Source: Xanthobacteraceae bacterium
GTDB lineage: Bacteria > Pseudomonadota > Alphaproteobacteria > Rhizobiales > Xanthobacteraceae
NCBI GenBank assembly: GCA_030037065.1
Contig: JASHRW010000399.1
Coordinates: 1-32,485, forward strand
Reading direction: 5' to 3'
DNA length: 32,485 nucleotides
Under the pieces are notes generated by a model. That model saw only the letters and a program-made list of their open reading frames with translations, was not told the DNA's origin and did not search any database. Positions 14,651 to 17,797 of this stretch are shown piece by piece. Every line of letters starts with the position of its first letter. Position 1 is the stretch's first letter. The translations under genes were made by a program, and so were the position numbers.

Positions 14651-15106
14651 ATGACCATCGACGATGAAATCGCCCTGCTGTCACGCGTGCCGGTCTTCGC
14701 CCGGCTGGGCAACGGCGCGCTGCGCAGCCTCGCCATCGCTGCCGAGAGCTATGCGATCGAGGCGGGCGAGGTGCTGTTCACCGCTGGCGAGACTGCCGAC
14801 GGCGCCTACATCATCCAGTACGGCACGGTCGGCCTGCAGCCGGATCGCGGCGATGAAATCGTCGTCGGTCCGGGCACGCTGCTCGGCGAATCGGCACTGC
14901 TGGCGGAAACCAAACGGCCGGCGACTGCTGTCGCCCGCGAAGTCTGCCGGGCGATGCGCATCTCGCGCGCGACGTTTCTCAAAGTGCTCGATTCCTATCC
15001 GGACGCCGCCTGGCGGCTGCGCGACGCGCTCGCCGCGCACACCGATCAATGGGCGCGCGAGATGGAGAATATCCGCTCGACGTTAAAGCGCGGCGAGGGG
15101 GAGTAG
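14651..15106 (+). CDS. Stand-alone cyclic-nucleotide-binding domain protein
   Basis: A 151-residue protein made of one CRP-type cNMP-binding domain. LLSRVPVFARLGNGALRSLA is the entry helix; the phosphate-binding cassette is GESALLAETKRPATAVA with the conserved Glu and Arg. After it comes a helical tail (about 110-151) rich in Arg and Glu, with no helix-turn-helix, so it is not a Crp/Fnr transcription factor. It may sense a cyclic nucleotide and act through protein contact. Directly behind a response regulator gene, it could modulate that pathway; this link is inference from operon position only. Confidence 0.85.
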   Translation: MTIDDEIALLSRVPVFARLGNGALRSLAIAAESYAIEAGEVLFTAGETADGAYIIQYGTVGLQPDRGDEIVVGPGTLLGESALLAETKRPATAVAREVCRAMRISRATFLKVLDSYPDAAWRLRDALAAHTDQWAREMENIRSTLKRGEGE

Positions 15107-15201
15107 GCGAGACGGCTGCCATCGTCCTCGGGCCAAGCCGTGGCAAGGCGCAGCTACCGTAAACAAAGTCGCCACTCGTCCTATCGTTAGAGATAATTAT
15201 G

Positions 15202-15230
15202 TTGACTTTTGTCCTTGTTTGAGGTACATG
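15202..15230 (+). promoter_or_regulatory. Candidate sigma70-type promoter of the structured RNA
   Basis: TTGACT (15202-15207) and TACATG (15225-15230) are separated by exactly 17 nt. An AT-rich tract (TAGAGATAATTATG, 15188-15201) precedes it, unusual for this GC-rich region and suggestive of an UP element. The -35 matches consensus at 5 of 6 positions, the -10 at only 3 of 6. A start near 15236 would place the first nucleotides in the outermost stem of the candidate RNA. Confidence 0.5.
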
Positions 15231-15233
15231 ATT

Positions 15234-15636
15234 CCGCTATCTCGCTCGTCACAGGACGCCTTCGGCCGAGGGTAAATCCGAATGCGGAGCGAGTGCGGTG
15301 CCCGCGGGCGGGCTTACCACCCGCTCCCGGGCGGCTCGGGCATCACCCTGCCGGCACTATGACCGGCGCGTGAGGTGCTCACTGGACGGTGACAGGACGG
15401 CGCGGGTAACGCCCGTGGAGATGCGCATGGTACTCGCCCCGGTTGGCGGTCCATAGGATCATGCGCTCCGGCCGAGTCTCCGGAAGCGTGGCCTGACGCC
15501 GAGCCTTGGGGACTAACTGTCCCCTTGGCGAGAGCCGCGGTAGGACGCCGACAGGCGGGCGCGCTTTGCAAGGCGCGCGCCGCAACGGCGGTTGCGGCAG
15601 TTGGTTCACGTCTGTCGGCGTTCTGCCTCCTTTTTT
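15234..15636 (+). ncRNA. Candidate highly structured non-coding RNA, about 400 nt, of unknown class
   Basis: No ORF here has coding character, but perfect stems follow each other. CCGC (15234) and CTCGCTC (15241-15247) pair with GAGCGAG (15287-15293) and GCGG (15295). GCGGG (15308-15312) pairs with CCCGC (15320-15324). GGTGCCCG (15297) pairs with CGGGC and CACC at 15337-15347. GCGCATG pairs with CATGCGC around 15423-15475. GGGGAC-TAACT-GTCCCC lies at 15508-15524. A 16-bp closing stem joins 15539-15554 to 15612-15627 and encloses two further hairpins, one of them GCAAC-GGCG-GTTGC (15582-15595). TCC and six T follow at 15628-15636, like an intrinsic terminator. Not recognised as RNase P RNA, tmRNA, SRP RNA or 6S RNA. 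The strand is chosen from the promoter and the T-run. Confidence 0.5.
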
Positions 15637-15949
15637 CTTCCCTTGGCCGACAGTGAGGCGAAGGGAAACAAGAAGCTCCGAAGACCGCCGAAAGGCGGAA
15701 GCTCGCGGAGCGAATCATTCCAGTCCGCGCGCCGCGAATCGAAAAATCGCGCCACGGGAACGGGATCGTTTCCCCCTTCCCGCCCGCGCGCAGAGCGCGC
15801 GGCGGCAGGCGCTTTGTCGGAGGGCCACGCGCGAACGAATGTCGCCGCTTTCACCCCCACCCGCCGCGTGGAGCTTGTCATCGGACCGGCCACTTCGGGC
15901 TGGACCCGTTGGCGCGGCGACCTTCCCCCTGGAGGGGGGAGTTGTTTGT
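15637..15949. other. Hairpin-rich non-coding tail before the ABC exporter
   Basis: No gene seen. Successive perfect hairpins continue: TTCCCTT (15638) with AAGGGAA (15661); GCTCCG (15675) with CGGAGC (15706) enclosing CCGCC-GAAA-GGCGG (15685-15698); CGCGA (15733) with TCGCG (15747); CCGCGCGC-AGA-GCGCGCGG (15784-15802); and a CCCCC/GGGGG stem at about 15925-15939, which lies just downstream of the minus-strand exporter stop. The region may belong to the RNA element upstream or be stacked intergenic palindromes. Confidence 0.6.
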
Positions 15950-17797
15950 TCACTCCGCCGCTTGCATGTCGGTGGCGTCCAAAAAGCCGCCGGCCTGGCG
16001 GCGCCAGAGTGCGGCGTAATGGCCGTCACGGGCGAGAAGCTCACGGTGACTGCCTTGCTCGACGATGCGGCCGTGCTCAAGCACGACGAGGCGATCCATC
16101 TGGGCGATGGTCGAAAGCCGGTGCGCGATGGCTATCACGGTCTTACCCGCCATCAGCGTGCCGAGGCTCGATTGGATCGCGGCCTCCACCTCGCTGTCGA
16201 GCGCCGAGGTCGCTTCGTCGAACACCAGGATCGGCGCGTCTTTGAGAATGACGCGGGCTATGGCGATGCGCTGGCGTTGGCCGCCGGACAATTTCACGCC
16301 GCGCTCGCCGACGTGGGCGTCGTAGCCGCGCCGGCCATTCCAATCTTCCAGATCGAGGACGAATTCGTGCGCATGGGCGAGCTTGGCGGCGCGCTCGATC
16401 TCCGCGTCGCTCGCCTGCGGCCGTCCGTAGCGGACGTTTTCCCGGATCGAGCGGTGCAGAAGCGAAGTGTCCTGCGTCACCACGGAGATCTGCGCGCGCA
16501 GCGATTCGGCCGTCAGCCCGGAAATATCCTCGCCGTCGATCAGAATGGCGCCGCCTTCGAGATGGAAGAAGCGCAGCAACAGATTGACCACGGTCGATTT
16601 GCCGGCGCCGGAGCGGCCGACCAGGCCGATCTTCTCGCCGGGATGGATCGTGAGATTGAAATTCTGCAGGACACCGGCCTCGCGGCCGTAGCCGAAGCTG
16701 ACGTTCTTGAAGTCGATGCGGCCGGCGCGCACGGTGAGCGGCCGCGCGTTTTCCGGATCGGGCAGTTGCAGCGGCTGCGCGATGGTCAGCATGCCCTCCT
16801 GCACCACGCCGACATCCTCGAAGATTTCGGTGATGCGCATGGCGATCTGGCGCGACATGTTGGTGAGCTGCAAGGTCAACGGCAGCACCATGGCGATGGC
16901 GCCGACCTCGATGGCGCCATAGCGCCACAGCACGACCGCCAGCGCGCCAGCGCCGGTGATGAGCAGCACGTTGAGCACGTCGAGCAACGTCACGAACGCG
17001 GTCAGCAGACGCTGCGCGGCCTTGAACAGATCGACATGGGCGTCGACCGCATCGCGCACATAGTCGTCCTCCTCTCGCGCGCGGGCGAACAGCTTGACCG
17101 TGAGGATATTGGTGTAGCTGTCGACGATGCGCCCCATCAGCGTCGAGCGCGCGATCGACGAGACTTTCGAGCGCTCGCGCATGCGCGGCACGAAATAAAC
17201 GAGCAGGGCGGCGTAACCGGCGAACCACAGCACCAGTGGCAGCGCGAGCCAGCGGTCCGCCGCCGCCGCGAGTGTGATCGCCGACACACCGTACACCGAG
17301 ATGTACCAGACGGTGGTGATGGTCGCGGTCAGCGTGGAGCGCACCGACGGGCCGGTTTGCATGACGCGGTTGGAAATGCGGCCGGCGAAATCGTTTTGAA
17401 AGAACGCCCAGCTCTGCCGCACCACGTGCCAGTGCGACTGCCAGCGAATCAAGCCGGTGAATGGCGCCGCGATGGCCTGGTTGGAGATCAGGTAGCGCAT
17501 CAGCGTCACCGCCGGCCGCACGATGACGACGAACGCCGCGACGCCGAGAAGCCAGGGCCACTTGTCGGCGAACAGGCGGTCGGGCGGCGTCTTGGTCACC
17601 ATGGTGACGATGCGACCCATGAACCAGGGCACCGCGCTGTCGGTCAGCGCCGACATGCATTCGACGACGAACAAGGCCGCAAACAGCCATTTCGCCTGCC
17701 GGGCAAAATGCCACAGGAAGGCAATAAGCTTGGCCGGCGGTTCGGGATTTTCCGGCGGGGCCGTCGGCGTCAGGATTCGTTCGAAAAATGCAAACAT
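15950..17797 (-). CDS. ABC exporter, fused permease-ATPase (MsbA/multidrug type)
   Basis: A 615-residue half-transporter that should work as a homodimer in the inner membrane. About six transmembrane helices lie in residues 35-330. The nucleotide-binding domain has Walker A GRSGAGKS (394-401), Q-loop VVTQDTSLLHRSIRENVRYG, signature LSGGQRQR (503-510), Walker B ILVFDE with catalytic Glu528, D-loop SALD and switch His in IAHRLST. Substrate could be a lipid, peptide or drug; nothing specific is seen. It is transcribed away from the divergent Bug-type receptor gene (178-bp gap). No ribosome-binding site is obvious before the ATG (CCGAAAATG), so the start is only moderately sure. Confidence 0.92.
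   Translation of the reverse strand: MFAFFERILTPTAPPENPEPPAKLIAFLWHFARQAKWLFAALFVVECMSALTDSAVPWFMGRIVTMVTKTPPDRLFADKWPWLLGVAAFVVIVRPAVTLMRYLISNQAIAAPFTGLIRWQSHWHVVRQSWAFFQNDFAGRISNRVMQTGPSVRSTLTATITTVWYISVYGVSAITLAAAADRWLALPLVLWFAGYAALLVYFVPRMRERSKVSSIARSTLMGRIVDSYTNILTVKLFARAREEDDYVRDAVDAHVDLFKAAQRLLTAFVTLLDVLNVLLITGAGALAVVLWRYGAIEVGAIAMVLPLTLQLTNMSRQIAMRITEIFEDVGVVQEGMLTIAQPLQLPDPENARPLTVRAGRIDFKNVSFGYGREAGVLQNFNLTIHPGEKIGLVGRSGAGKSTVVNLLLRFFHLEGGAILIDGEDISGLTAESLRAQISVVTQDTSLLHRSIRENVRYGRPQASDAEIERAAKLAHAHEFVLDLEDWNGRRGYDAHVGERGVKLSGGQRQRIAIARVILKDAPILVFDEATSALDSEVEAAIQSSLGTLMAGKTVIAIAHRLSTIAQMDRLVVLEHGRIVEQGSHRELLARDGHYAALWRRQAGGFLDATDMQAAE

Follow-up and report, generated by a model that had tools for sequence, protein, structure and literature searches.

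The locus

The window, by which we mean the whole stretch of 32,485 nucleotides that was analysed, contains at positions 14651–15106 a 151-amino-acid ORF which follows a response-regulator-like gene. This ORF presumably specifies a cyclic-nucleotide-binding (Crp-like) domain; both genes were named by eye. Between the crp-like gene and an ABC gene further downstream lies an RNA of about 400 nt which is one member of a large, unnamed, multicopy RNA family. Read directly, the + strand from 15202 to 15636 holds a TTGACT/TACATG pair and all of the stems described for it previously (Table 1). A second short dispersed repeat, of about 50 nt, is found downstream of the RNA (window 15867–15918); lookalikes occur in G000:C305 (two places), C278 and C444, and beside the ABC orthologue in L244.

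Table 1. Features of the RNA locus in window coordinates
Feature	Position	Strand	Basis
-35 box, TTGACT	15202–15207	+	TTGAC in 44 of 50 distinct full-length copies (window copy excluded)
-10-like TACATG, 17 nt after the -35 box	15225–15230	+	Read from sequence
Predicted RNA	15236–15636	+	Start inferred from promoter; full-length copy homology stops at 15634–15640; covariation
P1 enclosing P2	15241–15293	+	P1 15241–15247/15287–15293; P2 15257–15263/15280–15286
P3, 15295–15299/15534–15538; closes 5' multibranch domain	15295–15538	+	98.1% paired, 0 pairs changed on both sides
P4 hairpin	15301–15331	+	3/8 pairs changed on both sides (31 copies)
P5, 15332–15340/15492–15501	15332–15501	+	97.8% paired, changes one-sided only (31 copies)
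P6 hairpin, loop type CAYTAYGA	15349–15368	+	6/6 pairs changed on both sides (35 copies)
P7 hairpin, loop mostly GGTGC/GGAGC	15370–15382	+	4/4 pairs changed on both sides (both alignments)
P8, 15387–15393/15476–15482; variable arm 15394–15475	15387–15482	+	5/7 pairs changed on both sides (31 copies)
P9 hairpin	15503–15529	+	3/3 pairs changed on both sides (31 copies)
P10, 19-bp stem 15539–15557/15609–15627; closes 3' domain	15539–15627	+	98.0% paired, 8/19 pairs changed on both sides
P11, 15562–15565/15572–15575, and P12, 15583–15586/15591–15594	15562–15594	+	4/4 and 3/4 pairs changed on both sides
T-run after P10, terminator-like	15631–15636	+	Read directly; absent from scan list
Likely leftover of the spacer preceding the four-cysteine gene in G000:C85	15641–15769	+	73.5% identity of 15601–15769

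Promoter and 3' end

The preliminary description of this locus gave the RNA a promoter of its own, a TTGACT/TACATG pair with 17-nt spacing. Both elements are in place as described, and the -35 box is conserved within the family; the count in Table 1 was made on distinct copies, with duplicates removed and the window copy excluded. In the aligned rows, which still held duplicates (for example L040 and L088), TTGAC occurs in 76 of 84, as against 116 of 1680 shuffled rows. Among the remote loci discussed below it lies upstream in two of nine, both (L393 and L394) of the window's own family, and in none of the seven RNA hits outside that family. Many aligned copies have TATAGT, TATATT or TACAT at the -10 place; some have none of these. 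Our promoter scan did not list the TTGACT/TACATG pair, TACATG failing the rule of that scan (T at position 6). On inspection by eye, the -35 box in the window's genus is often bordered by GTGAC/GAGAC-like and GTCAC/GTCTC half sites (window 15150–15230 and homologues). This suggests a shared regulator, a by-eye reading made without a test.

An own terminator had also been claimed, and here the result is mixed. TCC and six T residues do follow the closing stem, and stem and T-run together are terminator-like; the terminator itself remains unproven, and none was listed at 15640 by the scan. The T-run is common in copies of the window's genus, while other copies have a hairpin without it.

Secondary structure and covariation

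On folding the + strand of the window RNA alone we obtained -226.5 kcal/mol (z = -5.5), with none of 100 shuffles as good. The - strand folds nearly as well (z = -5.1) and single-sequence folding therefore cannot choose between the strands. The covariation counts given here were made on the + strand alignment; the - strand had no separate covariation test.

The full-length alignment of 31 copies has 12 helices with 83 pairs, 94.9% of the cells being paired. Forty-two of these pairs are changed on both sides (shuffle mean 24.0), and the covariation score is 0.321, compared with 0.169 in shuffled alignments and at most 0.088 with slid partners; none of 500 shuffles was as high on any of five measures. 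In the 5' domain, for which 35 more diverse copies including Rhodoplanes and Pseudorhodoplanes were aligned, 90.9% of the cells are paired and 25 of 38 pairs are changed on both sides, with a score of 0.460 (0.216 shuffled). It should be borne in mind that the 31-copy structure was largely derived from the alignment used for counting, that the same holds for the 35-copy test, and that relatedness was only partly controlled in both. Absence of covariation in homologues had been named as an outcome that would refute a functional RNA; covariation across copies is strong.

The stems described from the window alone are all present, some of the consensus helices differing from them in length. Thus the 16-bp closing stem is there, its consensus counterpart P10 having 19 bp. 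The first stem, P1, is CTCGCTC/GAGCGAG in the window and, by eye, in many copies, CCATTC/GAATGG in L128 and CCTGCTT/AAGCAGG in L102 and L181. Five of its seven pairs are changed on both sides in the 35 copies and two of seven in the 31; for P2 the figure is six of seven in either alignment. P3 and P5 are only weakly supported by covariation, since they are nearly invariant or show one-sided changes only. The CAYTAYGA loop of P6 and the GGWGC loop of P7 are kept in most copies. P8 has one U-U mismatch in the window copy, and its variable arm is short or missing in many copies. In genus g153 (L330–L345) we noticed by eye an apparent extra 3' domain just downstream of P10, around a conserved AACAACAGGGG, with a possible pseudoknot pairing.

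Distribution and copy number

BLASTN located the element in all 20 genomes of the window's genus (its own included), in two of 17 genomes from other genera of the family and in none of 24 genomes sampled elsewhere in the order; a genome with the element usually has it at several places. The window's genome gave 30 matching pieces with a query that included 320 nt of downstream sequence; these counts are of pieces, not of copies. Full-length homology in other contexts starts at 15197–15239 or at 15284, and its end is given in Table 1.

A degenerate pattern for the 3' stem matched at least 120 stretches in named genomes. Those listed were mostly from Xanthobacteraceae or Hyphomicrobiales MAGs and Rhodoplanes piscinae MAGs; also among the matches listed were R. 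elegans, R. tepidamans, a Pseudorhodoplanes MAG, Pseudolabrys MAGs and Rhodopseudomonas rhenobacensis. Of the 121 loci from the pattern scans (named genomes plus viral), 100 were matched by a profile made from the first copies obtained. The 21 others, which include five Pseudolabrys loci shown and a viral contig, were not counted as carriers. The RNA is present in the cultured strains Rhodoplanes elegans DSM 11907, R. tepidamans DSM 9987 and Rhodopseudomonas rhenobacensis DSM 12706. Pattern hits in Streptomyces, Nocardioides, Deinococcales and Magnetococcales had no profile match, and an IMG/VR hit (L208) had no RNA match; all were taken as chance.

Wider searches employed R1, a calibrated model of the 5' domain only. 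The Pseudolabrys loci (L125, L145, L153, L158 and L166), which the first profile does not match, have no significant R1 match either (L145 reached 16.6 bits, E 0.27); four of the five match a broader profile, and these were likewise not counted as carriers. R1 matches 146 of 248 genomes and 34 of 47 genera of the window's family. Thirteen of the 47 sampled genera lack a match, g43 among them, for which the order-wide sample lists 14 genomes without one; the RNA is therefore not essential in the group. Order-wide, R1 matches 22 of 397 genomes at E ≤ 1e-3, and 19 of the 22 lie in seven families other than that of the window, many of them weak (E up to 3e-4). Copy numbers from these two surveys are lower bounds, as at most 12 candidates were scored per genome in the family and at most seven order-wide. 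Six genomes of one or two contigs have 16, 16, 11, 14, 10 and 9 copies at E ≤ 0.01. In the window's genome at least 12 copies of the RNA stand against four hits to the protein described below at E ≤ 1e-3. L043 has a partial second copy (897–1011), consisting of the 5' part only, about 1.3 kb upstream of the full one.

As R1 does not extend to the 3' motif, that motif could be held out and checked in nine of eleven remote loci; L396 and L397, in which the match is not at the standard place, were left out. L393 and L394, of the window's own family, have two mismatches each. Of the seven loci from other families three (L392, L395 and L399) have 3–4 mismatches, L390 and L391 have 7 (their controls reached 4) and two have 9–10; the controls had means of 8.0–9.4 and minima of 4–8. 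The 3' end therefore bears out some of the hits outside the family and not others. The homologue searches and the covariation together uphold the suggestion of a new RNA of about 400 nt common to related Hyphomicrobiales.

Searches for known RNA classes

Rfam 15 gave nothing at gathering level over the whole window; relaxing the cut-off to E ≤ 10 for 15100–15960 brought up just two matches, both scoring far below gathering. Fifteen further loci with diverse copies yielded only a 6S RNA and a tRNA, both away from the copies. The 6S RNA (L182:1675–1829, - strand, 75.3 bits) lies about 270 nt upstream of an element copy on the same strand. A tRNA/tmRNA search was negative. An Rfam hit to a known class would have removed the novelty of this RNA, and no family matched. 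The conserved cores of RNase P, tmRNA, SRP and group II RNAs had been reported absent and no model hits to them were obtained; with many dispersed copies besides, resemblance to these classes was dropped. A group II intron is further disfavoured by the promoter which copies carry at their 5' end, and OLE RNA was set aside for want of an Rfam hit to it at the copies. A phage or plasmid origin was rejected, the plasmid and phage collections giving no match by DNA or by two proteins (one protein only for the phage collection).

A four-cysteine protein encoded downstream

Comparison of the neighbours of RNA copies revealed one recurrent gene, located downstream of the RNA on the same strand. Its product is small and basic, about 90–140 amino acids in most members, with the motif C-x4-C-R-R-x4-C-x5-7-C; 26 members share four invariant cysteines in a core W-x2-C-x4-C-R/K-x4-C-x6-C. 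Neither Pfam nor PHROGs places these 26 in a common family, only single-member matches at E 0.019 or worse being returned, and PDB sequences gave no match. The AlphaFold model of the L088 protein is of good quality (pLDDT 82.4) and all helical, and has no fold neighbours at E ≤ 0.001 in PDB or BFVD. No known RNA-binding relative was found by sequence or by fold.

In 201 loci (1.64 Mb) there are 25 matches to the motif. Twenty-four lie 177–576 nt downstream of an RNA on the same strand, and the remaining one is a low-complexity stretch; matches to the protein profile begin about 60–540 nt after the RNA. Because the loci were chosen for holding the RNA, such counts show position rather than exclusivity. 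With duplicates removed, 21 of 150 copies having at least 800 nt of downstream flank have the protein downstream on the same strand; none has it in any of the three alternative positions, upstream or on the opposite strand. The other 129 have no cysteine motif downstream by the expression used, which more divergent proteins may escape, and the protein is thus not needed in cis. The window copy has no remnant of the protein. Its segment 15601–15769 nevertheless resembles the region before the four-cysteine gene in copy G000:C85 (Table 1), and so it may have lost the gene.

Searches were also begun from the protein. In genomes chosen for having the RNA, all five protein hits have an RNA upstream; no hit to the protein came from two of the five genomes, and L268 probably repeats locus L124. 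In an order-wide search of 297 genomes, the first profile found the protein in five genomes other than the window's, all in three other families. The RNA upstream is clear in L084 (41.6 bits), borderline in L081 (18.7 bits) and L080 (16.6 bits), partial in L082 (13.7 bits) and not above 8 bits in L083. As to the nine remote RNA hits, a protein motif follows the RNA convincingly in L390 and L391 and possibly in L398; the matches in L393 and L399 are apparently fortuitous. A class-wide search of 385 genomes with a broader profile, in which at most 12 candidates were scored per genome, gave a single match besides the window's own genome (E 7e-4), which we took as chance.

By eye, stretches resembling a diverged 3' stem of the RNA can be seen upstream of the four-cysteine gene in L080–L083, as can a CACTATGA-type loop in L080–L082; model scores there are weak or absent. 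The RNA family may extend further than R1 shows.

Dispersal and sites of the copies

Both genes that precede the window copy are conserved among congeners: the response-regulator gene was found in 18 of 19 loci and the crp-like gene in all of them. In none of the 19, for which 0.4–1.5 kb of downstream sequence was available, does the RNA follow the crp-like gene. Nor does it lie beside any of 12 orthologues of the downstream ABC gene, nine of whose loci reach at least 0.8 kb past the 3' end.

Genome G435 has 12 copies with pairwise identities of 0.94–0.99 per 20-column block over columns 61–280, the P8 loop excepted; the 3' part, at 0.57–0.88, occurs in two variants. The P8 loop of these copies (L330–L341) appears hypervariable, with an identity of 0.60 in 20 columns. 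Eleven of the 12 are alike from the -35 box on, and L336 only from near the start site. The sequence before the -35 box differs between copies, subsets of which share other short repeats.

One G435 copy precedes prfC, the 3' end of the RNA abutting the conserved prfC leader. The RNA is absent from this site in all 19 congener loci read (29 congeners were searched), and in G550, G557, G552, G473, G527 and G558 only 113–281 nt separate the aligned neighbour gene from prfC. Because the stretch added in G435 includes other repeats as well, and the site is occupied in some congeners by about 1 kb of different sequence, a single clean insertion cannot be inferred from it. In six G435 copies the longest match between the ends as terminal inverted repeats was 5 nt, and direct words that might represent target duplications were 0–7 nt long with no common rule. 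A MITE was rejected on the lack, in these six, of terminal inverted repeats and of a consistent target-site duplication. As for the P8 loop as a possible guide for the copy's own neighbourhood, no signal above background was seen: over 12 copies, the longest word shared with the flanks averaged 7.9 nt for own flanks versus 8.1 nt for those of others.

Interpretation

The structure of the RNA, the conservation of its -35 box within the family, its dispersal in many copies, and the order and strand of the protein gene are all observed, and it is on these that our interpretation is built. Solo copies keep promoter and fold, which argues that the RNA matters by itself; the fixed position of the protein gene argues for a dedicated partner. 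Taken together they favour a structured RNA that acts in trans, in a ribonucleoprotein with the four-cysteine protein, an explanation which we consider to have an even chance of being correct.

In such a scheme a sigma-70-type promoter would direct synthesis of the RNA of about 400 nt, transcription being inferred in the absence of transcript data. The product is predicted to fold into a 5' multibranch domain (P1–P9) and a 3' domain closed by the 19-bp stem (P10–P12). Acting in trans, it would serve as scaffold for a ribonucleoprotein, with the small basic protein encoded just downstream of some copies as its dedicated partner; we infer this binding without binding data, and the action in trans and the job of the particle without phenotype data. 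Most copies, that of the window included, would be solo RNA genes, with promoter and fold kept and no protein gene seen, served by protein made at other loci. The promoter–RNA unit may have spread to many intergenic sites by an unidentified copying process, its mode of spread being likewise an inference. A bolder version, in which a particle of the RNA and a protein of no known family itself drives or controls the spread of the promoter–RNA unit and moves solo copies in trans, would amount to a new class of mobile or semi-mobile genetic system; this we regard as doubtful.

The main rival overlaps with the favoured ribonucleoprotein reading. It is a mobile RNA-plus-protein element organised like HEARO/IscB, in which the RNA inserts with or without the protein, and solo copies are non-autonomous and moved in trans. 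That congeners lack the RNA at the crp-like, ABC and prfC loci, so that its sites are lineage-specific, is what one would expect of it, as are the twelve similar copies in G435 and the RNA-then-ORF order on one strand with many solo RNAs. We nevertheless hold it to be somewhat unlikely, though a real possibility: in six copies terminal inverted repeats do not exceed 5 nt and target duplications follow no consistent pattern, neither a nuclease nor a transposase-like protein is attached, the prfC site with its other repeats and other congener sequence shows no clean single insertion, and the plasmid and phage collections gave no match. A palindromic DNA repeat of the REP or MITE type, without RNA function, would account for a multicopy intergenic element often found beside other repeats. 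Such repeats would not be expected to have 42 of 83 pairs changed on both sides, several of them long-range, nor conserved loops, a conserved -35 box or a protein gene in constant position, and terminal inverted repeats are lacking; this explanation is very improbable indeed.

Two other possibilities centre on the protein gene, and both seem improbable to us. Were the RNA a cis-acting, riboswitch-like leader of that gene, with solo copies as decayed remains, the fixed order and strand and the distance to the protein matches would follow naturally; most copies, however, have no gene and yet the family keeps the -35 box and the pairing, ORFs picked beside copies in closed genomes lie on either strand, and a T-run or hairpin stands between RNA and gene. 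The other is a toxin–antitoxin system in which the small basic protein is kept in check by the structured RNA, and solo copies are orphan antitoxins. While a small protein beside a structured RNA, many copies and a patchy distribution are in its favour, the 26 proteins share no Pfam or PHROGs family, and the alignment, looked at without a repeat finder, has no type III-like repeat array.

Comparison with known systems

Few classes of large structured bacterial RNA are known, and those that have been solved are often ribozymes, scaffolds or guides. We found no RNA of this description named in the literature, by which we mean open-licence PubMed Central only. A term search of two surveys of bacterial noncoding RNAs, limited to their main text, returned no alphaproteobacterial terms (PMC11109978, PMC8632094). 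The alphaproteobacterial suhB RNA (RF00519) is similarly multicopy and has its own promoter and terminator and no fixed neighbour (PMC1273637). Unlike the present family it has one short conserved helix besides the terminator (PMC1273637), and no Rfam match to RF00519 was found at the copies. Br-REP1 and Br-REP2 of Bradyrhizobium and Rhodopseudomonas are also intergenic repeats of related bacteria, but are palindromes of tens of bases; within the accessible part of their description neither a 400-nt RNA nor a protein partner is mentioned (PMC5082802).

OLE of the Bacillota, with OapA and OapC, is also a large structured RNA of open function and works as a ribonucleoprotein. Its partner gene adjoins the RNA. 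OLE is about 600 nt and Gram-positive, whereas the present family is about 400 nt, belongs to Hyphomicrobiales and has many copies per genome. Among HEARO elements solo RNAs are common. HEARO/IscB resembles our family in having the RNA gene directly upstream of the protein gene on the same strand, and 65% of the 5' UTRs of HEARO nucleases hit RF02033 (PMC9755519). In contrast, our family has no RF02033 match; its four-cysteine protein is small, with an all-helical model, no Pfam nuclease domain and no RuvC or HNH; and its variable P8 loop has no flank match beyond background (12 copies; 5' flank not covered).

The combination looks like a new RNA–protein system in which binding is inferred and the function is open. 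As the RNA is abundant, occurs in cultured strains and has a candidate partner protein, that function is directly testable. No known family was matched by the RNA or by the protein, while the layout has analogues in HEARO and OLE.
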